The notes beneath the pieces are model-generated. The model had not been told where the DNA came from, did no database searches, and was given only the letters and a program-made list of their open reading frames with translations. From Methylococcales bacterium (GTDB lineage: Bacteria > Pseudomonadota > Gammaproteobacteria > Methylococcales > Methylomonadaceae), in contig SHZG01000004.1 in assembly GCA_009692395.1 (NCBI GenBank), positions 1-37,317 on the forward strand: a stretch of DNA of 37,317 nt, written 5' to 3'. Below, piece after piece: positions 8,439 through 35,232 of the stretch (positions are counted from its first letter, which is position 1; every line of letters begins with the position of its first letter). The translations under genes were made by a program, and so were the position numbers.

Positions 8439-9533
8439 TTACTCTGCTTCAATCTGGCGCACACGCTGCGTCACACCACATACCAACGTATAAGGGATAG
8501 TATCGGCACATAACGCTATTTCTTCCACAGGCAAACCCTCACCCCATAACGTCACTGCATCACCTGCTTTAGCCGTGGATGCCACACCCAAATCAACGGT
8601 AATCATATCCATAGACACCCGCCCGATTAACGATACCCGTTGTCCATTCACTAGCACAGGCGTACCTGATTTAGCATAACGCGGATAACCATCCGCATAA
8701 CCAATCGCTACCACGCCTAAAATCGACTCTTGCTCACACAACCAACTGCCGCCATAACCCACCGTATCGCCTTTTTCGATAGGTTTAACAGCAATCAAGC
8801 GCGAATGTAAACTCATAATCGGTTTTAAACCCAGCTCTGCTCCCGTCACTTGGGCAAACGGTGAAATGCCATACAGCATAATGCCTGGCCGTACCCAATC
8901 GGTGCTTGCTTGCGACCATGCCAAAATACCCGCTGAATTAGCAATACTACGTTCATTGTTCGCATCTAACGGCAATGTAGCTAACGTCGCATTAAATAAA
9001 GCCAATTGCTTGCCCGTCATTGCATCGGCTTTATCATCGGCACTCGCTAAATGTGTCATGATGTTAATCGGCTGTTTAACAATTGAACACTGCATTAATC
9101 GCGCATAAACAGCCTGCAAATCCGCCGCTTTAAAACCTAAACGATTCATGCCCGTATCGAATTTTAACCATACCGCTATTTTTTGTTGCTCAGTTCGCGC
9201 ATCAAAAATAGCCAACTGCGACCATGAATGCACCACTGCATCCAAGCCATTCGCTAATAATTCATCCAATTCGTCGGTACAAGTAAAACCCTCTAACACT
9301 GCAATTCGTTTTTGTACGCCTGCTCGTCGCAAACGCACACCTTCATCAACACGCGCCACTGCAAAACCATCAACCTCGTTTGCTAAGGCATGAGCGAGGC
9401 GCAACGCACCATGCCCATACGCATTGGCTTTAATCACTGCCATAATCTTGGCATCGGGCGCACAATCGCGCACTTTTTGCAGATTATGACTTACTGCTGC
9501 CATATTCAACACTGCGTAAGCTGCTGGAATCAC
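8439..9533 (-). CDS. alr: Alanine racemase
   Basis: PLP enzyme converting L-alanine to D-alanine for peptidoglycan. The PLP lysine is K35 in MAVIKANAYGHG. Further signatures are MTHLAS, the VRPGIMLYG phosphate-binding segment, VGYGGSW with the catalytic tyrosine region, and the C-terminal GRVSMDMITVDL. Length 364 matches the Alr family. Its ATG overlaps the dnaB stop (ATGA), so it is probably co-transcribed with dnaB, a common gammaproteobacterial pairing. Its stop abuts that of rapZ with no spacer. A dadA neighbour, expected for a catabolic DadX, is lacking, which favours the biosynthetic role. Confidence 0.95.
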   Translation of the reverse strand: MIPAAYAVLNMAAVSHNLQKVRDCAPDAKIMAVIKANAYGHGALRLAHALANEVDGFAVARVDEGVRLRRAGVQKRIAVLEGFTCTDELDELLANGLDAVVHSWSQLAIFDARTEQQKIAVWLKFDTGMNRLGFKAADLQAVYARLMQCSIVKQPINIMTHLASADDKADAMTGKQLALFNATLATLPLDANNERSIANSAGILAWSQASTDWVRPGIMLYGISPFAQVTGAELGLKPIMSLHSRLIAVKPIEKGDTVGYGGSWLCEQESILGVVAIGYADGYPRYAKSGTPVLVNGQRVSLIGRVSMDMITVDLGVASTAKAGDAVTLWGEGLPVEEIALCADTIPYTLVCGVTQRVRQIEAE

Positions 9534-10924
9534 TCATACTCCTCATGACTGTAAGACGACCCTGAGAAATTTTCAAAGCGGGTGTACTGTCCCAGAAAAG
9601 TTAAACGCACCGTTCCCAAAGGGCCATTACGCTGTTTACCAATAATCATTTCCGCAATGCCTTTATCAGGACTTTCAGGGTTATAAACCTCATCGCGATA
9701 CACAAACACAATCAAATCCGCGTCTTGCTCAATTGCCCCCGAATCACGCAAATCGGACATCACAGGGCGTTTATTCGGGCGTTGCTCCAGATTACGATTT
9801 AACTGTGATAACGCCACCACAGGCACATTCATTTCTTTCGCCAAGGCTTTTAAACCTCTGGAAATATCAGAAATTTGCTGCACGCGATTATCACCGCTAC
9901 TGGGCGACTGCATGAGCTGCAAATAATCCACCACAATTAAACCCAGCTGTCCATGTTCACGCGCCACACGCCGCGCTCTTGCGCGTAATTCAGTTGGGCT
10001 TAACGCAGGCGTATCATCAATAAATAATTTGGTATTTGCCAATAAACTAATCGCTGACGTTAACCGTGGCCAATCATCATCATCCAGCTTGCCCGTTCTG
10101 ACTTTATGTTGATCAATACGCCCTAAAGACGACATCATCCGCATTGCTAAAGAATCCCCTGGCATTTCCATACTGAACACTAACACAGGCTTATCGCTTT
10201 TTAACGCCACGTTTTCTGCCATGTTCATGGCTATTGTGGTTTTACCCATTGAAGGCCGACCCGCAACAATAATTAGATCTGATTGTTGCAAACCTGAGGT
10301 GAGTTCATCAAAATCGGTAAAGCCTGTACTTGCGCCTGTAATAGAGCCTTCTTGCCCATACAAGCGTTCGATTTTTTCAACTGTTTGCGCTAATAAGGTT
10401 TTAATCGCGACAAAACCGCCCTGCCCTTTTTGCCGTTGTTCAGCAATTTTAAAGACTTGCCGTTCAGCATTTTCTAGCAACTCAGCGGTTTCGCGTCCTT
10501 CGGTATTAAATGCTGAATTAGAAATTTCAGTGCCAACATGAATTAATTGCCGCAATACGGAACGGTCTTTCACAATTTTGGTATAGGCGAGAATATTGGC
10601 AGCCGTGGGGGTATCTTCGACTAACATAATCAAATAAGGTAAGCCGCCGATACTGTCGAGTTCACCGATATTACGCAAGGCATCCGACAGCGTAATAATG
10701 TCAAATGGCATTTGTTTTTCAGCCAAATCTTCGATGACGCGAAAAATTAACTGGTGATTACGCCGATAAAAATCAATCTCGACAATCTGATCGGCAACAC
10801 TGTCCCACGTTTGATTATCCATCATCAAACTCCCCAAAACTGACTGTTCAGCCTGCATGGAATTAGGCGGAACTTTTAGCTTATCAACTGAATAATCACG
10901 ATCCATTGAATAATTTTCGTACAT
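9530..10924 (-). CDS. dnaB: Replicative DNA helicase DnaB
   Basis: Hexameric 5'-3' helicase of the replication fork, which recruits primase. The N-terminal domain (about residues 15-120, PPNSMQAEQSVLGSLMMDN) is followed by a linker and a RecA-like motor with Walker A GRPSMGKTT (about 222-230), Walker B LIVVDYLQLM, the LSQLNRNLEQRPNKRP segment and an arginine-finger region (DLRDSGAIEQDAD). Length 464 is typical, and no intein is inserted at the Walker A or motif 4 sites where DnaB inteins occur. alr overlaps its 3' end. The common upstream neighbour rplI is not present; mtaB lies divergently instead. Confidence 0.96.
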   Translation of the reverse strand: MYENYSMDRDYSVDKLKVPPNSMQAEQSVLGSLMMDNQTWDSVADQIVEIDFYRRNHQLIFRVIEDLAEKQMPFDIITLSDALRNIGELDSIGGLPYLIMLVEDTPTAANILAYTKIVKDRSVLRQLIHVGTEISNSAFNTEGRETAELLENAERQVFKIAEQRQKGQGGFVAIKTLLAQTVEKIERLYGQEGSITGASTGFTDFDELTSGLQQSDLIIVAGRPSMGKTTIAMNMAENVALKSDKPVLVFSMEMPGDSLAMRMMSSLGRIDQHKVRTGKLDDDDWPRLTSAISLLANTKLFIDDTPALSPTELRARARRVAREHGQLGLIVVDYLQLMQSPSSGDNRVQQISDISRGLKALAKEMNVPVVALSQLNRNLEQRPNKRPVMSDLRDSGAIEQDADLIVFVYRDEVYNPESPDKGIAEMIIGKQRNGPLGTVRLTFLGQYTRFENFSGSSYSHEEYE

Positions 10925-13292: not shown

Positions 13293-13853
13293 ATGAATGA
13301 CGATAACCTAGATTTTTATGAAATCCTTGAGATAAGTTCAAATGCCAGTCAAGATACGATTGATAGAATGTTTCGTTTTTTAGCCCAGCGTTATTATCCT
13401 GATCGCCATGAAACGGGTGATGCTATCAAATTTGATCAAATTGTTAAGGCTCATGACACCTTGAGGGACCTTGAAAAGCGTACTGCTTATGACATCAAGC
13501 ATAAGAAAAATTCAGAATATCATTGGAATTTGGTTTAAGAGGCGGGTGATACGGACGGTTTTGAAAACGATGAGAGTATTCAAGCAAGGGTTCTGTCAGT
13601 TATGTATATCAAACGCAAACGTGATATGTCTCATCCAGGCATTGGTAATATGCTGCTTGAGCGTTTAATTGGTTGCCCAGAAGAAATACTGGAATTTCAT
13701 CTGTGGTATTTAAGGGAAAAAGGCTGGGTTACACGCATGGAAGACGGTTTACTGGCGATTACCGCAGCAGGCGTTGATAAAGCACTAGCCAATCATCATG
13801 CAGGTGGGGCAAACAAATCAATCACCGACCAGCATAATGTCATTCATTTGTGA
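13293..13853 (+). pseudogene. J-domain protein gene with an in-frame stop
   Basis: The two track ORFs at 13293-13538 and 13602-13853 are in one frame. Between them only the TAA at 13536-13538 interrupts, and the intervening codons read sensibly (EAGDTDGFENDESIQARVLSV). Residues 1-70 form a J-domain (LDFYEILEISSNASQDTID...). The C-terminal half looks like a small helical, possibly winged-helix, domain (LLERLIGCPEEILEFHLWYLREKGWV). The HPD tripeptide needed to stimulate DnaK ATPase is YPD here (QRYYPDRH), one base from CAT. Both changes suggest loss of function, although the reading frame is otherwise clean over 185 codons. Sequencing error or stop readthrough could also explain the TAA. Confidence 0.75.
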
Positions 13854-14247: not shown

Positions 14248-15936
14248 ATGATAATTCTCGGTATTAATGATGTGGGTCATCATAATTCCGCCGCATCAAT
14301 TGTTGTTGATGGTCAATTGGTCGCCTCTATTGAAGAGGAGCGCATTTCACGCATTAAAATGGATAACGCTTATCCGCATCAAGCGATTGCTGAGGCGTTA
14401 GCGATTGCAGGTATTACCGCTGAACAGGTGGATGTGGTGGCGTTGGCAGGTTTATCGCGCTGGGATCAAAAGCCTTATGTGGATACTTTATTCAAATACA
14501 TGGCGAAAGTTGCTAAACAAGAGCCTGATATTAAAAAGTTTTATTGGAATCAACAACCTGCGCGACTTACCCGCTTATTTAAACAACGTCAAAAACCTGC
14601 GGGTATCTTGGCTGATAAACCCACGAAAACCGTTGAGCATCATTTAGCCCATGCTGCATCGGCTTATTATGCGTCACCATTTGCCGATGAACGCGTGGGC
14701 GTTATTTCTTTGGATGGTGTGGGTGATTTTTCGTAGGGTTCGGTGTGGTTAGGTGAACACGGACAATTACAACAAGTTGAGTATTTACCGTATCTCAATA
14801 GTATCGGTTTGCTGTATTCAGCGGTGACGATTTATCTGGGTTTGAAAGCCACGCGCCACGAAGGTAAAGTGTTAGGTTTGGCAGCGTTTGGTAATCCAGA
14901 GCCGTTATTATCATGGTTATTCGCCCATACTAATCAGTCGGATTGGGCAAATTTGTTTGATGCTAAATTGGCGCGGATTGCCTTACAGTTTGCTAAAGAA
15001 ATCGGGCAATCAGCTCTTCGAGCATTGTGTGATGGCTTGAGTCAAGAAGACGTTGCCGCAGGCATTCAAGCCTATACCGAACACTTGATTTGCAACTGGA
15101 TACAACACCAAGCCCAGCAATTAAAACTCAGCAAATTAGCCTTAGCAGGCGGCGTATTTGCCAACGTTAAGTTAAATCAACGACTGTTAGCTTTGCCTGA
15201 AATTGATAATATTTATGTGCATCCAAATATGGGTGATGGTGGTTTGGCAACGGGTGCGGCTTACTAAGTCTATTCGCGCTTACAAAATGGTTTGACCCCA
15301 AAGTTACAACCGCACGTTTATTTAGGCACAGACATTAATCGAGAAAACGCGTTAGCTGCGTTAGAAAAATCAGGATTGGCTTACAGTGAACCTGAAAATT
15401 TATCTTATGCGGTGGCGAAGTTATTAGCCGCAGGTAAAGTAGTCGCAAGAGCGGCGGGGAAAATGAAATACGGCCCGCGTGCGTTGGGCAATCGCACAGT
15501 GATGGCTTCTTGTCAGGATAAAAAAATTAATCAATGGCTGAATGAAACATTTGCCCGCACCGAGTTTATGCCGTTCGCGCCTGTGATTATCGAAGAACAG
15601 GCGCAGGCGTATTTTCCTGATTGGCAAGAAAACCACGTTACAGCGCGGTTGATGACGCTGACTTATGATGCCTCACCCGTCGCGCAACAAAATATTCCAG
15701 CAGCGGTTCATGTCGATAATACCGCCAGACCACAAGTGATACGCCGCGTCGATAATCCTGCCTATTACGATATTATTAACGACTATTATCACTTAACAGG
15801 CGTTGCTAGTGTGATTAACACCAGCTTCAATATGCACGAAGAGCCGATTGTTCGCACGGCTGAAGAAGCCATTCAAGCATTTAAAGCGGCTCAGTTGGAC
15901 GCGCTTATTTTGGATGGTTTTTTAATCGAGCAATAA
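14248..15936 (+). pseudogene. NodU/CmcH-family carbamoyltransferase with two in-frame stops
   Basis: Three track ORFs (14242-14736, 14743-15267, 15292-15936) share one frame and together encode an apparently full-length carbamoyltransferase of about 560 residues. They are separated only by TAG at 14734-14736 and TAA at 15265-15267. Family motifs run in order: GINDVGHHNSAA and EEERISR, VEHHLAHAASAYY, SLDGVGDFS, RHEGKVLGLAAFG, LAGGVFANVKLNQ, GDGGLATGAAY, GKMKYGPRALGNRT and INTSFNMHEEP. These comprise a Kae1-like N-terminal domain and a YrdC-like C-terminal domain, using carbamoyl phosphate and ATP on a hydroxyl acceptor. The acceptor is unknown. I prefer the ATG at 14248 over the TTG at 14242. 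As read, no full enzyme would be made. Confidence 0.85.
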
Positions 15937-15943
15937 AACTGCG

Positions 15944-15973
15944 GGAGTACAAACCTAGGTTTGTATTCCTTTT
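15944..15973. terminator. Hairpin between the carbamoyltransferase and pip
   Basis: GGAGTACAAACC pairs with GGTTTGTATTCC over 12 bp (one G-T) with a TA loop. TTTT follows on the + strand, making a plausible terminator for the + gene. It also sits directly after the pip stop on the minus strand, where the T-run is missing. The convergent layout fits a shared terminator. Confidence 0.7.
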
Positions 15974-16914
15974 CATTGGCTTTCTGCAAAGTTATCAGTT
16001 GCCGAAACCAACGCGTTTATCATGTCATCACCTTGCGCAATATGCCCTGCATTCGGCAGAATAATATACTCCGCATGAGGCATGGCTAGCTGCAAACACA
16101 TTCCTGCTTCGATAGGGCAGACTAAATCCATGCGCCCATGAATAATCACGGTGGAAATGCTTGCTAATAAGTGGCAATTATCCAGAATCTGATTTTCCGC
16201 AATAAAATAACGATGCTTGGCATAATGCAGTTCCATTCGTGCTAGCTTGAGCATTTTTTCACTAACGTGTTCATCGCTAGGCTGATAATCATTGCCTAAA
16301 GCCACTTGCGCTCCCCATGCCAACCATTCTTTGGCAACTCGCCGCTGTGTGACTTCATCTTTATCCCAGAGCGCGTTATAACATTCCTGTACAAAATTAT
16401 TATGATTGGCATTAGGAATGCTATCAATCAACCGCTTCCATTGTTCAGGATAAATACGCCCTGCCCCATCTTTGGCAAACCAATTCAAATCAGCTTGCCG
16501 TGCTAAAAATACCGCACGAATAATCAAGCCCATGACTTTATCAGGATGCTGTTGTGCATACAATAACGCCAACGCCGCACCCCACGAACCACCGAACACC
16601 AGCCATTGCTTGATATTGAGTTGTGTGCGGATGCGCTCTAAATCTTCACATAAATCTTGGGTGGTATTTTTATCCAGCTCACCAAATGGTAATGATAAAC
16701 CGCAAGCACGTTGGTCTAGCAGAATAATATGATAACGTTCAGAATTAAAAAACTGGCGGTGATGCGGTTTAGTCCCTGAGCAAGGCCCACCATGTAAAAA
16801 AACCACAGGAATCCCGTCTGGATTGCCGCTTTGTTCAACATAAACACGGTGCTGACTACTTGTGTCGAGAAAAAAACTGTTAAAATGCTGGATTTCAGGG
16901 TAAAGAGTTTTCAT
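15973..16914 (-). CDS. pip: Prolyl iminopeptidase (alpha/beta hydrolase)
   Basis: Serine peptidase that removes N-terminal proline from peptides. The alpha/beta-hydrolase fold is shown by the oxyanion motif HGGPCSG (41-47), nucleophile elbow GGSWG (Ser110), an acid near HGRMDLVCP and the catalytic histidine in NAGHIAQGD. DQRACGLS corresponds to the conserved DQRGxGxS of the family, with A in place of G. Length 313 is typical, and no typical signal peptide is evident, suggesting a cytosolic enzyme. It appears monocistronic and convergent with the broken carbamoyltransferase. Assignment to the S33 family is firm; the exact substrate range is not. Confidence 0.9.
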   Translation of the reverse strand: MKTLYPEIQHFNSFFLDTSSQHRVYVEQSGNPDGIPVVFLHGGPCSGTKPHHRQFFNSERYHIILLDQRACGLSLPFGELDKNTTQDLCEDLERIRTQLNIKQWLVFGGSWGAALALLYAQQHPDKVMGLIIRAVFLARQADLNWFAKDGAGRIYPEQWKRLIDSIPNANHNNFVQECYNALWDKDEVTQRRVAKEWLAWGAQVALGNDYQPSDEHVSEKMLKLARMELHYAKHRYFIAENQILDNCHLLASISTVIIHGRMDLVCPIEAGMCLQLAMPHAEYIILPNAGHIAQGDDMINALVSATDNFAESQ

Positions 16915-23315: not shown

Positions 23316-24320
23316 GTGCGTATTTTAATTGTCGGAGCTTCTTGGGTGGGTGATATGGTTATGGCACAAAGCCTGTTTATCACCCTGAAGCAACAACACC
23401 CAGACTGCCAGATTGATGTCCTTGCTCCACCGTGGACACTGGCATTATTGGCACAGATGCCCGAAGTGTCTTTGGCAATTGAAATGCCATCGGTGCGTAA
23501 TAAACTGGGCTTAATGATGCGTATCAAGCTGGGTAGACAGTTACGCGACCATCATTATGACCAAGCAATTTTACTGCCCAACACTTGGAAATCGGCATTA
23601 ACGCCATTTTTTGCTAACATTCCCGTCAGAACAGGTTATGTGGGTGAATGTCGTTGGGGTTTGCTCAACGATGTGCGCCGTTTGGATAAAACCATCTTAA
23701 CCAAAACCGTACAACGTTTTGTCGCGCTTGCTTTGCCTGCAACGTTTCAAGGTGTACCCGACTGCCCTGCCCCTGTCTTTAATATCAATTCAGAACACCA
23801 GCAACAACTCATTACAAAATACGCGCTACCCACAGACCGAAAAATTTTAGCCCTGTGTGCAGGTGCAGAATACGGCGAAGCCAAACGCTGGCCTGTCACC
23901 CATTACGCCGCCGTAGCCCGACAAAAAATCAGCGAAGGTTGGCAAGTCTGGTTGTTAGGTTCGCCAAAAGATAAAGCGGCGGCGGCTGATATTAATCGCC
24001 TTGCTGGTAATGGCTGTGTCGATTTTAGCGGCAAAACCAGCATGACGGACGCAGTCGATTTATTATCGTTAGCTGATGTCGTTATCAGCAATGACTCAGG
24101 TTTAATGCACGTTGCCAGTGCCTTAAATAAAAATCTCATTGCCATTTATGGCTCTTCTGATCCCAACTTCACTCCACCTTTAAGCAACAAAGCCAACATC
24201 ATTTATTTAGGCTTACCTTGCTCTCCGTGTTTTAAACGTGACTGCCCATTAGGGCATACCCGCTGTTTAACAGAGATAAGTGCAGAGTATGTTTTATCTC
24301 ATATAGCCAAAGCACAATAA
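23316..24320 (+). CDS. waaF: ADP-heptose:LPS heptosyltransferase II
   Basis: GT9-family enzyme that adds the second heptose to the LPS inner core on the cytoplasmic face of the inner membrane. Start is GTG, with product MRILIVGASWVGDMVMAQSL, the family N-terminus. Further matches to WaaF are VLAPPWTLALLAQMPEV, LLPNTWKSALTPFFANIP, LLNDVR, CAGAEYGEAKRWP (donor site), and NDSGLMHVASAL...YGSSDPNFTPPLS. Length 334 is close to E. coli WaaF (348). A Cys-rich C-terminal segment (CSPCFKRDCPLGHTRC) is present, as in several non-enteric heptosyltransferases. It ends the cluster that starts at the ICMT-like gene. Confidence 0.93.
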   Translation: MRILIVGASWVGDMVMAQSLFITLKQQHPDCQIDVLAPPWTLALLAQMPEVSLAIEMPSVRNKLGLMMRIKLGRQLRDHHYDQAILLPNTWKSALTPFFANIPVRTGYVGECRWGLLNDVRRLDKTILTKTVQRFVALALPATFQGVPDCPAPVFNINSEHQQQLITKYALPTDRKILALCAGAEYGEAKRWPVTHYAAVARQKISEGWQVWLLGSPKDKAAAADINRLAGNGCVDFSGKTSMTDAVDLLSLADVVISNDSGLMHVASALNKNLIAIYGSSDPNFTPPLSNKANIIYLGLPCSPCFKRDCPLGHTRCLTEISAEYVLSHIAKAQ

Positions 24321-26158: not shown

Positions 26159-29100
26159 CTACAATGATTGCGTTACGCCTGTTGAAAGTAATGTTGCAAA
26201 ATCAGCCGCTGGAACAGGTTTACTACAAAAATAACCTTGATACATATCACACCCGTGTTCGCGTAAAAATGCTAATTGTTCCGCCGTCTCTACACCTTCA
26301 GCTAATACTTTAAAACCTAAATGATGCGCCATTGCAATAATGGTTGCGGTGATGGCCATATCGCCCGCTAAAAAGGGAATATCATCAATAAAGGTTTTAT
26401 CTATTTTCAATAAATCAACGGGGAAATATTTGAGATACGCCAACGATGAATAGCCTGTACCAAAATCATCAATAGCAAAGCGCACACCTTGTTCATGAAG
26501 ACCATTAAGAATAGACAGCGCGTGCTGTTGATTTTCCATTAAGCCACTTTCGGTGATTTCTAATTCCAGATACTCAACGGGAAAGCCTGACTCCAGCAAT
26601 ACTTGAGTAACCAGCGCGTTAATATCACTGCGGCTAAATTGATGCTCCGAAACATTAACTGCCAAGGTAATAGCAGGTAAACCTTGATCTAACCATTGCC
26701 GACCTAGCCTACAGGTTTCTCGTAGCACCCATTCACCCAGAGCAACAATTAAACCTGTGTCCTCAGCAAGTGGAATCAACTCACTGGGCATAATAAAACC
26801 ATGAATGGGATCATGCCAACGGACTAAGGCTTCGGCACCGATAATACAGCCACTATTAATGTCGATTTGGGGTTGAAAATAAACCTGTAGTTCTTGCTGT
26901 TCAATGGCGTGACGTAAACGAGCTTCCAATGCAATCCGTTCACGCGCTTTTTCGGTTAATTCATCAGAAAAATAAGCAAAGCAACCGCGTCCTGATGCTT
27001 TAGCATGATAGAGAGCCGTATCCGCATTATCCATGAGTGTTTCTACGGTGTGACCGTGCTGTGGATAAAGAGCAATACCAATACTAGCTCCGATAGTGAC
27101 ACTGTAATGTTCGACCAGTATAAAGGGTTGTTTTAAGCTAACAATAATATCATCAGCAACCCGCGCCACATTTTCATAATGGTTGATATTTTCCATTAGA
27201 ATGATAAATTCATCGCCCCCTAAACGTGCCACTGTATCCACTTCACGCACACAGGCTTTAATGCGTATTGCTACTTGTTGTAATAATTTATCCCCTGCCG
27301 CATGACCAAAATTATCATTAACGACTTTAAATTTATCTAAATCCATCATTAATACAGCCATCAGATTACCTGTGCGATGATTACTATCAATGCCGTGTTC
27401 GATGCGCATTTGTAGCAATCGGCGATTCGCTAACTGTGTTAAATGATCATAAAAAGCTAAGTTATTAATATGCTCCTCGGCAACTTTGCGTTCAGTAATG
27501 TCTTCCACCATTACCATAATATAATCGACTTCACTATTGGGCTTACGAACGCAACGCACGACTAACTTAGTGGGAATAATTTTGCCAGTGCGACTAACAA
27601 AACGTTTTTCTAACGAGTAACCATTAATCTCATTCGCTAACAAGCGTTCAAATTGTTCAACATTAGCAGCTAAATCATCTGGATAGGTCAGTTCAGCCCA
27701 CGTCATACGACGTAATTCTTGTTCTGAGTATTCCATCATGTCACATAAACATTGATTAATACGCATCCAGCCTTTTTCAGGTGATGTAATTGCCAAGCCG
27801 ACTAAATCCAATTCGTAAAATGCGCGTAATTGTTCTTCATCTTGTTTGCGGTCAGTAATATCAGTCGATATGCCACATAAGCCATAAATAGTGTCGTCAT
27901 CAAAGCGTAACGGTTGTTTGACAGTAAGATAGGCAGTACAACGAGAACCATCTTCGCTGACATTTACTTCTTCACGCGCGATACGCTCACCCTGTTCAAT
28001 GACACGACTATCATTAATATGTAAATTAGCGGCAGTGTCACTGTCAAAAAAATCGCTATCGGTTTTACCTATGATAGCGTCCAGTGGTTGCTTAAACAGT
28101 TCCCGCACTAAGCGATTCGCATACTGATAACGATAGTCTTTGTCTTTGATGTAAATATAGGCTTCAACATTGTCGAGAATAGTATTCAGTTTATTTTCAC
28201 TATCACGCAGTTGTTGTTCTACTTGTTTGCTCTCAGTAATGTCACGGGTAACAGACAATAATGCAGTGATATGACCATCACTATTACGCAAAGGCACGGC
28301 ACGAGTTTCCAGCCAGCGATATGTTCCCTTAAGCCCGCGTATTTCAAACTCAAGATTGCCAGACCCACCATTGAATACTTGTCTTGTTAATGCCATGAAC
28401 GCAGCCCTATATTTTGGCAGTACAATTTCTTGTATATTCTGACCGATGACTGACTGCTCAGAATCCGCTTCAATAATCGCCAAGCCAGCAGGATTCATCT
28501 GTAATAACGACCCGTTTGCCGCCAGTAACTTCAAACATTCAGGCTGTGTTTCAATAATAGTACGCATTTTTAGTTCACTTTCTTGCTGTGCCATCCGTGC
28601 TTGTTCGCGCTCAGCTTCAATCTGTGCAAGATTAACCTGCTTTTCTAATAACCAGCCCAATACACTGTTTTTTGAGGCAGTTGGGATTGAATTAGCCCAT
28701 AAAAAATCCTTGTTACCAAAATGAGAGATACAGAGTTGCAATTGATCCACAGAACAGCCCAACACGGCGTACAAAGCCCGATCGGCAAGCACCAGCGTCA
28801 ACAGCAATAGAAAACCAAAGACAATAAACAATATCCATAAGAGTGTTGAGGTACTTTCGGCGGAGCGAACAGTTTTTAGTGTGCGCTGCTCTATCATCAG
28901 ATTGAATTTACCGATGGGCTGCATCATGTTCGCCTTGGCTTGAAAATAAGTTGGGGAATATAACAACTCTATGGCTTTGCGGCGATTATCATCAGTGAGT
29001 GGTTGAGTGGCTTCGATTAACGCCATCGTGGCGAATTCATCGCGTATCAATTGATCGGAATTGTGCTTTACTTGCGCCAATTTAGCAAATTCTGCGGCGG

Positions 29101-29497
29101 TAAAATGAGCTTGCTGCATGAGTTCAAGCAAGGAAATTGACTCACCTTTAGCGCGTGGTCGGCGGTTGCCTGCCAACACAAAATCCCAATAAACATCTTC
29201 ATAGCTTAATGGACGTGGTCTTTTACCCTCACGAATGGCGATAATTTCCAGATAGTGCTGCTTGTAAATAGGATTACCCGTTGCCACATAACTGCGTACT
29301 GTGTTGGTGAGATCATCAGACGAATGGCGTAATTCATCTGCCAATAAAAATGCCTGCAAGCGCGACTCGTTAGCTAGACCTATCTCTTTTTCTGAGTGGA
29401 TATAAAAGCCAAGGCTAAGAGACAAGATGACAAACATCCCCAAGACTAGCCAAAGACTGCGTGTGAACCTCAATAAGTTTTTGTTGTACTTAGTCAT
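26159..29497 (-). CDS. Membrane PAS-GGDEF-EAL cyclic-di-GMP signalling protein
   Basis: Inner-membrane sensor of 1112 residues that may make and degrade c-di-GMP. TM1 (about 10-30) and TM2 (about 212-240) flank a mainly helical periplasmic domain. About three PAS/PAC modules follow (about 310-690; WMRINQCLCDMMEYSEQELRRMTW belongs to the last). The GGDEF domain keeps RLGGDEF (about 757) and an upstream RxxD (REVD), five residues before it, the product-inhibition I-site. The EAL domain keeps EALVRW (about 887), ELEITES, DDFGTGYSS (about 1008) and AEGVE, so both activities look possible. It is monocistronic by spacing. The signal is unknown. Confidence 0.93.
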   Translation of the reverse strand: MTKYNKNLLRFTRSLWLVLGMFVILSLSLGFYIHSEKEIGLANESRLQAFLLADELRHSSDDLTNTVRSYVATGNPIYKQHYLEIIAIREGKRPRPLSYEDVYWDFVLAGNRRPRAKGESISLLELMQQAHFTAAEFAKLAQVKHNSDQLIRDEFATMALIEATQPLTDDNRRKAIELLYSPTYFQAKANMMQPIGKFNLMIEQRTLKTVRSAESTSTLLWILFIVFGFLLLLTLVLADRALYAVLGCSVDQLQLCISHFGNKDFLWANSIPTASKNSVLGWLLEKQVNLAQIEAEREQARMAQQESELKMRTIIETQPECLKLLAANGSLLQMNPAGLAIIEADSEQSVIGQNIQEIVLPKYRAAFMALTRQVFNGGSGNLEFEIRGLKGTYRWLETRAVPLRNSDGHITALLSVTRDITESKQVEQQLRDSENKLNTILDNVEAYIYIKDKDYRYQYANRLVRELFKQPLDAIIGKTDSDFFDSDTAANLHINDSRVIEQGERIAREEVNVSEDGSRCTAYLTVKQPLRFDDDTIYGLCGISTDITDRKQDEEQLRAFYELDLVGLAITSPEKGWMRINQCLCDMMEYSEQELRRMTWAELTYPDDLAANVEQFERLLANEINGYSLEKRFVSRTGKIIPTKLVVRCVRKPNSEVDYIMVMVEDITERKVAEEHINNLAFYDHLTQLANRRLLQMRIEHGIDSNHRTGNLMAVLMMDLDKFKVVNDNFGHAAGDKLLQQVAIRIKACVREVDTVARLGGDEFIILMENINHYENVARVADDIIVSLKQPFILVEHYSVTIGASIGIALYPQHGHTVETLMDNADTALYHAKASGRGCFAYFSDELTEKARERIALEARLRHAIEQQELQVYFQPQIDINSGCIIGAEALVRWHDPIHGFIMPSELIPLAEDTGLIVALGEWVLRETCRLGRQWLDQGLPAITLAVNVSEHQFSRSDINALVTQVLLESGFPVEYLELEITESGLMENQQHALSILNGLHEQGVRFAIDDFGTGYSSLAYLKYFPVDLLKIDKTFIDDIPFLAGDMAITATIIAMAHHLGFKVLAEGVETAEQLAFLREHGCDMYQGYFCSKPVPAADFATLLSTGVTQSL

Positions 29498-33229: not shown

Positions 33230-34276
33230 CTATTTCCAATCTTCATGAGCCAGTTTGTGATAACCACGTTTTTCTATAAATTGCAGAAACTCTTTTTTAT
33301 CCGTTGTTGGAAATTCAACTTGTATTTCATCCGATAATTTTTTTAACATCATATCGCCAATTGAATCTGCAAATTTACCGCGTAGGGCTTTTTCATACCA
33401 TCGCAGTAAATCGCTTTCAGTGACTATGCTTTGGATTTTCGACTTCCAACCCAGTTGATTAAGCAAGGAAATGATGATTTTCTGCTCCGTATCTTTGCAT
33501 ACAATAACAATACGGTCGGCTGATACCGATGAAACGATGTTTTCTGCCAACTCTTCCGTTAAAGACAGATGTTTGATTTGTATCGCTAGACCAAAATTCG
33601 CCCCACGGTCAGCGGCATTGGTAACGCCAACACGGTTTATTCTGGCTTTAAGATTTATTGTCGTTTGCGCTGGAGTCAGTTGAATAACGCTTTTCGCAAA
33701 ATCGGAAAATTCGTTGAGAATATCAGTTTTATCAGGATTTATGCTAACGGCAACTGAAATTTCAAGTGCCTCAACTAGCGTGGCGAATAAAGCATAAACA
33801 ATAATTTCATACACCTTGTCGATACTTTGGCGTAATCCTGCTTCATGCCAAAATAGTGCCAAAAATTCGTCCAGTTTAAAGTTGCTTTTATCGTGTGTTA
33901 CACAATAATCCAAACCTGTAGTCATTTGATTAAAACGCTGTAGAAACTTGCGATAAATATAGGCTTCAACGATACCGTTTGTCGCTCTATTTTCTTTGCC
34001 AAGTATGTCTAAAACAGCGGGCGGAACGGCATTATCGTTAAAAACATCATCTTGATAACGTGCTGATGAGGTACTGGTTCTGCCTAAAAATTGAATACAA
34101 ATTACGTCGTGCCACTTTTTTGATTTTGTGCGATACGTTGTCAAATCTGAAAGTGTAATGTCTTGTTCTATTCGGTCACGATAAAGAATTTCAGCGATTT
34201 GTATGGATTTATCAAGATGCACCCGCGCTTTATCAATCACTTTATCTAATGCTTGTTTAGCTTCTACAGTATTCAT
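33230..34276 (-). CDS. Type II restriction endonuclease, HaeII family
   Basis: 348-residue protein whose ATG overlaps the stop of a C5 cytosine methyltransferase (ATGA), the classic restriction-modification layout. The runs ARVHLDKSIQIAEILYRDR, GRTSTSSARYQDDVF, DKVYEIIVYALFATLVE, AIQIKHLSL, SADRIVIVCK and RWYEKALRGKF fit my memory of the HaeII family, whose target is RGCGCY. The likely catalytic region is RVGVTNAADRGANFGLAIQIKH (D223, Q233, K235). My recollection is that relatives carry a few extra residues including an Asp between ADRG and ANFG, so this copy may be shortened there and possibly inactive. Cleavage target is inferred from family only. Confidence 0.78.
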   Translation of the reverse strand: MNTVEAKQALDKVIDKARVHLDKSIQIAEILYRDRIEQDITLSDLTTYRTKSKKWHDVICIQFLGRTSTSSARYQDDVFNDNAVPPAVLDILGKENRATNGIVEAYIYRKFLQRFNQMTTGLDYCVTHDKSNFKLDEFLALFWHEAGLRQSIDKVYEIIVYALFATLVEALEISVAVSINPDKTDILNEFSDFAKSVIQLTPAQTTINLKARINRVGVTNAADRGANFGLAIQIKHLSLTEELAENIVSSVSADRIVIVCKDTEQKIIISLLNQLGWKSKIQSIVTESDLLRWYEKALRGKFADSIGDMMLKKLSDEIQVEFPTTDKKEFLQFIEKRGYHKLAHEDWK

Positions 34277-35232
34277 ACTTCTAATTCAGGTAAGCGTAAT
34301 TGTGTTAGTTGTGCTTTAAAAGCCTTTTGTGCCTGTAACGCTTTTATCATTTCACCCGCTATCGCTTTAATCACAGGCACAGATACTGAATTACCTGCCA
34401 CTTTGCGTACACCTGAATAAGGCAACACAATTTTAAAATCATCAGGGAAACCTTGTAAGCGTAGCATTTCTCTAGCCGTTAAACGTCGCACACCATTAAC
34501 TACCAGATAGTTATAACTGCCGCCTGCTCTTAACGCGCACGAATAAGGCAATGCTGAAATATTACCGCCAATATTTTCATGCCATATTGACGGAAACGGT
34601 GGCGTTCCTTTTACGGCATTCAAGCGTTTTTGTTTGATAGTTTCAGACAGAAAATAACTAGGCTCAATAGCACCATCATTTTCTAATAGTTCGCTTAACG
34701 GTTGGTAATAACCTAACGGTGTTGGAAAATCAAAATGTACGGGTTGTAAAAAACCAACAATATAAATGCGCTCACGTTTTTGTGGTAAGCCAAAAGCTAA
34801 CGAATTAAATACACGGCTATAAACGGTATAGCCTAGATTTTTTAATTTTTCCAATATCACTGTAAATGTTTGACTATTATCGTGTGTCATTAGACGTTTG
34901 ACATTTTCTAATAAGAAAGCACGCGGTTTTTTAATTTCTAATATTTTTTCAATACTAAAAAATAATGTGCCGCGTGTATCGGCAAAACCTAAACCTTTGC
35001 CTGCAATACTAAACGGCTGACAAGGAAAACCCGCTAATAAAATATCGTGATTAGGAATATCACTAGGTGCAATTAAATTAATATCACCGTGTGGTATGTC
35101 ACCAAAATTGGCAGCATACATTTTTTGTGCATCGTTATCCCATTCAGAGGAAAACACATTTTCACAGCCGTGTGTTTCAAATCCTAAACGGATTCCGCCG
35201 ATGCCTGCAAATAAATCAATAGTTTTGTACAT
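34273..35232 (-). CDS. DNA (cytosine-5-)-methyltransferase of the HaeII-like system
   Basis: C5 methyltransferase of 319 residues with all main motifs in order: I DLFAGIGGIRLGF, IV GFPCQPFS (catalytic Cys71), VI LLENV, VIII QKRERIYIVGF, a target recognition region (about 200-265), IX RRLTAREMLRLQGFP and X GNSVSVPVIKAI. It precedes and overlaps the nuclease gene, so the methylase is made first. Single-gene size and motif order are typical of type II orphan or R-M enzymes; the neighbour supports R-M. Target is not readable from sequence; RGCGCY is inferred from the nuclease family. Confidence 0.93.
   Translation of the reverse strand: MYKTIDLFAGIGGIRLGFETHGCENVFSSEWDNDAQKMYAANFGDIPHGDINLIAPSDIPNHDILLAGFPCQPFSIAGKGLGFADTRGTLFFSIEKILEIKKPRAFLLENVKRLMTHDNSQTFTVILEKLKNLGYTVYSRVFNSLAFGLPQKRERIYIVGFLQPVHFDFPTPLGYYQPLSELLENDGAIEPSYFLSETIKQKRLNAVKGTPPFPSIWHENIGGNISALPYSCALRAGGSYNYLVVNGVRRLTAREMLRLQGFPDDFKIVLPYSGVRKVAGNSVSVPVIKAIAGEMIKALQAQKAFKAQLTQLRLPELEV

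Follow-up and report, generated by a model that had tools for sequence, protein, structure and literature searches.

An interrupted carbamoyltransferase gene in a methanotroph (methane-oxidizing bacterium) of the genus Crenothrix is most probably a genuine and very recent pseudogene, a product of ordinary gene decay. The gene lies within a 37,317-nucleotide stretch of DNA, here called the window, which is the whole of contig C106 in a 1.95-Mb assembly of 172 contigs that is 74.7% complete. We favor pseudogenization over scattered errors because missense changes have reached invariant sites of the protein and because nonsense changes are clustered in two adjacent accessory genes. The case would represent the ongoing loss, in one Crenothrix lineage, of an optional and probably lipopolysaccharide (LPS)-modifying enzyme: an ordinary event in a known enzyme family, with nothing unusual in the genetic code or in translation.

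The frame is gap-free, corresponds to a single protein, and contains exactly two internal stops (Table 1). It aligns over its full length, without a gap and at 92% identity, with the orthologue in Crenothrix sp. D3 (G007), the closest of the congeners compared and our reference for comparisons of window genes and genomes, which confirms the initial annotation of a single frame of about 560 codons free of indels and cut by a TAG and a TAA. Read through with X at the stops, the frame matches Carbam_trans_N (193.7 bits; E value, 7.6e-57; gathering cutoff, 24 bits) followed by Carbam_trans_C (180 bits; E value, 3.7e-53; gathering cutoff, 27 bits). By these matches, which are far beyond chance, it is a member of the NodU/TobZ-type carbamoyltransferase family; the window copy is presumably a member by descent and inactive. 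Identity as NodU itself was ruled out, as the NodU profile NF041651 matches nearly the full length of the window protein at only 146 bits, far under its equivalog cutoff of 1000 bits.

Table 1. Positions of the interrupted carbamoyltransferase gene, its altered codons, and neighboring genes within the window
Feature	Coordinates	Strand	Remarks
Interrupted carbamoyltransferase frame	14248..15936	+	562 codons plus terminal stop; ATG at 14248
Internal TAG, codon 163	14734..14736	+	TGG (Trp) in 6/6 intact congeners
Codon 199, Leu replacing near-invariant Phe	14842..14844	+	Phe in 45/46 homologues, Tyr in 1/46
Internal TAA, codon 340	15265..15267	+	GAA (Glu) in 6/6 intact congeners
Codon 407, Lys replacing invariant Glu of GKMEYGPRALGNR motif	15466..15468	+	Glu in 46/46 homologues
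Broken J-domain (DnaJ-type) protein gene	13293..13853	+	TAA replaces codon 82 (13536-13538), which is GAA in Crenothrix sp. D3
Intact alpha/beta hydrolase (prolyl-aminopeptidase-like) gene	15973..16914	-	Lies next to the carbamoyltransferase gene, on its downstream side, in most congeners
Intact GT9 heptosyltransferase (LPS core) gene	23316..24320	+	Same contig as the carbamoyltransferase

Looking for the intact gene in sister genomes and aligning intact homologues at the stops were both proposed in the initial annotation. Six of the seven congeners carry an intact orthologue (88 to 93% protein identity), while in the seventh, G005, it was found in fragments only. The frame disrupted here is thus intact in close relatives, with Trp and Glu at the sites of the stops. 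Among 46 homologues these two columns are mostly, not invariantly, Trp (30) and Glu (29). The proposal that the stops had replaced TCG and TAC, each by a C-to-A change, proved wrong: the congeners have TGG and GAA, and the changes are therefore G>A at Trp163 and G>T at Glu340.

The view that all family motifs are kept does not hold either. The Glu of the motif G-x-M-E-x-G-P-R-A-L-G-x-R is replaced by Lys407 in the window copy; the same Glu of GKMEYGPRALGNR is present in the solved novobiocin carbamoyltransferase. At such near-invariant columns all six Crenothrix congeners keep the consensus, and the window copy departs from it at both E407 and F199. In total, it carries 14 private residue changes (stops included), compared with 2 to 7 in the congeners.

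The J-domain gene directly upstream of the carbamoyltransferase is also broken, which the initial annotation did not mention. Crenothrix sp. D3 carries an intact copy, and no other congener yielded a full-length match. The remaining window genes with a counterpart in Crenothrix sp. D3 are open, except for differences that start choice explains. Their private changes (18 nonsynonymous and 82 synonymous, compared with 12 and 76 in the G007 lineage) show no significant nonsynonymous excess (P = 0.43).

Codon-model fits to the carbamoyltransferase gave a dN/dS of 0.097 on the window branch and 0.074 on the background (2dlnL, 0.95; not significant). The substitutions E407K and F199L speak for relaxed constraint; because the ratio on the window branch is not significantly raised, we conclude that any relaxation began only very recently. 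The gene may have recombined within the genus: its tree is unlike those of clpA and rpoN, but the AU test did not reject G000+G007 (p = 0.058). Methylobacter (M. tundripaludum SV96 among them), Zetaproteobacteria, Gallionellales, and other groups have homologues at 60 to 73% identity; such close homologues are common to Methylococcales and the iron-oxidizing Zetaproteobacteria and Gallionellales. This patchy distribution suggests gene transfer.

Across the genome, interrupted genes were more frequent than in the sister. In our survey, 181 Crenothrix sp. D3 genes were found in ∼0.78 Mb of the window genome (65,297 orthologous codons), 8 of them interrupted, compared with 1 of 185 in the reciprocal lookup in Crenothrix sp. 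D3. The eight, with names judged from their sequences, are the carbamoyltransferase, the J-domain gene, a metallophosphoesterase, two YeeE/YedE-like genes, a PIN-domain gene, rbfA, and a Nuo-type gene with a stop near its end; most are accessory. Relative to Crenothrix sp. D3, the two adjacent YeeE/YedE-like transport genes (L138, 17000-17810) have a 45-bp deletion and several 1-bp indels, and rbfA (L256, 5529-5890), a conserved housekeeping gene, has a one-base deletion in an A-run that may be an assembly error or a real frameshift. Three of the five nonsense changes found in the surveyed codons sit in the carbamoyltransferase and J-domain genes, two adjacent accessory genes totaling 748 codons (P ≈ 1.5e-5 if random, a post hoc calculation).

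Point changes also set this lineage apart. Over 24 genes with outgroups, private changes numbered 121 nonsynonymous and 400 synonymous in the window lineage, compared with 59 and 387 in the sister (P = 7e-5), about twice as many nonsynonymous changes at equal synonymous numbers. The window lineage also has an excess of A>C/T>G changes (for example, 51 GAA>GCA versus 9 in the reverse direction). Loss of mutT was rejected as the source of this asymmetry, given that an intact MutT homologue is present, as was Illumina GG-context error, given that GG is not enriched before T>G. Together, the nonsynonymous excess and the asymmetry possibly reflect a mutational shift combined with weaker purifying selection. 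That this draft genome exceeds its sister in both interrupted genes and nonsynonymous changes matters mainly for annotation.

Pseudogene, sequencing or assembly error, and stop readthrough had all been offered in the initial annotation as explanations of the two stops. The recent pseudogene is the best supported, readthrough is unsupported, and error is possible and less likely. The chief rival holds that such error, or a minority-strain base entering the consensus, made the stops in an intact gene, and we consider it a real if rather unlikely alternative. The assembly is a metagenome-type draft, the rbfA homopolymer deletion shows that it may hold errors, and the private nonsynonymous changes and base asymmetry described above could be taken as signs of error; moreover, published work attributes many bacterial pseudogenes to assembly artifacts (PMC11017572). 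However, random error sufficient to produce the genome-wide nonsynonymous excess predicts ∼45 nonsense changes in the survey, and only 5 were seen. Random error was therefore rejected as the source of that excess, most of which must be tolerated missense. Scattered error does not predict nonsense changes concentrated in two adjacent genes, and the G>A and G>T changes that made the stops fall outside the overrepresented A>C/T>G class. Nor would a pair of errors at the stops explain E407K and F199L, and the other window genes lack a significant nonsynonymous excess.

Two further alternatives would preserve a functional product, and we regard both as highly improbable. If the stops were read through or recoded, a full-length enzyme would result, in keeping with a frame that runs on, open and without gaps, beyond the two stops and with the still-low dN/dS on the branch. 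Against this, two different stop codons replace differing ancestral residues (Trp and Glu), congeners have no stop at either site, and the product would still have Lys at the invariant Glu407. TAA, TGA, and TAG end 86, 30, and 17 intact orthologous genes, respectively, and neither the window nor a tRNA-scanned sample of ∼0.5 Mb, about a quarter of the 1.95-Mb genome, yielded a suppressor tRNA. A change of genetic code was rejected on the same grounds; the standard code is used, and the initial annotation was right that TAA and TAG serve as normal stops. In the other scheme, reinitiation at GTG 14743 and TTG 15292 would yield separate polypeptides that reassemble into a split enzyme. The GTG lies six bases after the TAG and has AGGG just before it, but the TAG interrupts the N-terminal domain itself and not a domain linker, the E407K motif substitution persists, and no congener with an adequate contig shows such a split.

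On the pseudogene reading, stops arose at Trp163 and Glu340, missense changes entered otherwise invariant sites, and the upstream J-domain neighbor was broken too. Translation would end after residue 162; the product would lack the entire C-terminal domain together with most of the N-terminal domain, and no active enzyme would form. No second functional copy of the carbamoyltransferase was found in the window genome (75% complete). Without the enzyme, the cell would lose a surface decoration that is optional and would remain viable, leaving the gene free to decay. Alternatively, inactivation may have been selected, with loss of the surface carbamoyl group favored, for example, under phage or tailocin pressure. 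This idea draws on the accumulation of two nonsense changes with few extra missense changes, slightly above the expectation of neutral drift (1 nonsense per 15 missense) in a gene that was chosen for its two stops, and we consider it improbable.

The substrates of the intact enzyme are probably carbamoyl phosphate and ATP, and its probable product is an O-carbamoylated inner-core sugar of LPS. We suggest this LPS-core role because the zetaproteobacterial homologues sit in heptosyltransferase clusters, as does WapO in Pseudomonas. Based on roles judged from sequence, the neighbors in the zetaproteobacterial cluster, which is conserved, are two GT9 heptosyltransferase-like genes, a lipid A acyltransferase-like gene, and GT2 and GT4 glycosyltransferase-like genes. 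WapO (PA5005/PSPTO_4992) is a putative LPS-core HepII 7-O-carbamoyltransferase encoded among LPS-core genes (PMC8005017). The likeness lies in the carbamoyltransferase family and in the LPS-core gene setting of the zetaproteobacterial homologues. Unlike these genes, the Crenothrix copies are located outside an LPS operon, and the window copy is broken, with the GT9 heptosyltransferase gene ∼8 kb away.

Among enzymes of known structure, TobZ (PDB 3VEN), GdmN (7VYJ), and the novobiocin carbamoyltransferase (9S2T) belong to the same two-domain family, and the intact orthologue matches them over its full length (best E value, 4e-71). They share with it the motif G-x-x-E-x-G-P-R-A-L-G-N-R, whereas the window copy has Lys in place of Glu. 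These enzymes act in antibiotic biosynthesis and are only distantly related, and the window contains no antibiotic cluster.

We also observed several differences from Crenothrix sp. D3 elsewhere in the window. DnaB (9530-10924) is 464 amino acids long, compared with 607 in Crenothrix sp. D3, where the protein has an in-frame 143-amino-acid insertion resembling an intein or similar insert. A PAS/GGDEF/EAL protein (26159-29497) has 1112 amino acids, compared with 857, which suggests that sensor domains were gained or lost. Finally, a HaeII-type restriction endonuclease (RE_HaeII; E value, 4e-146) and a C5-cytosine methylase form a pair at 33230-35232, adjoining glnS, that is absent from the corresponding place in Crenothrix sp. 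D3.
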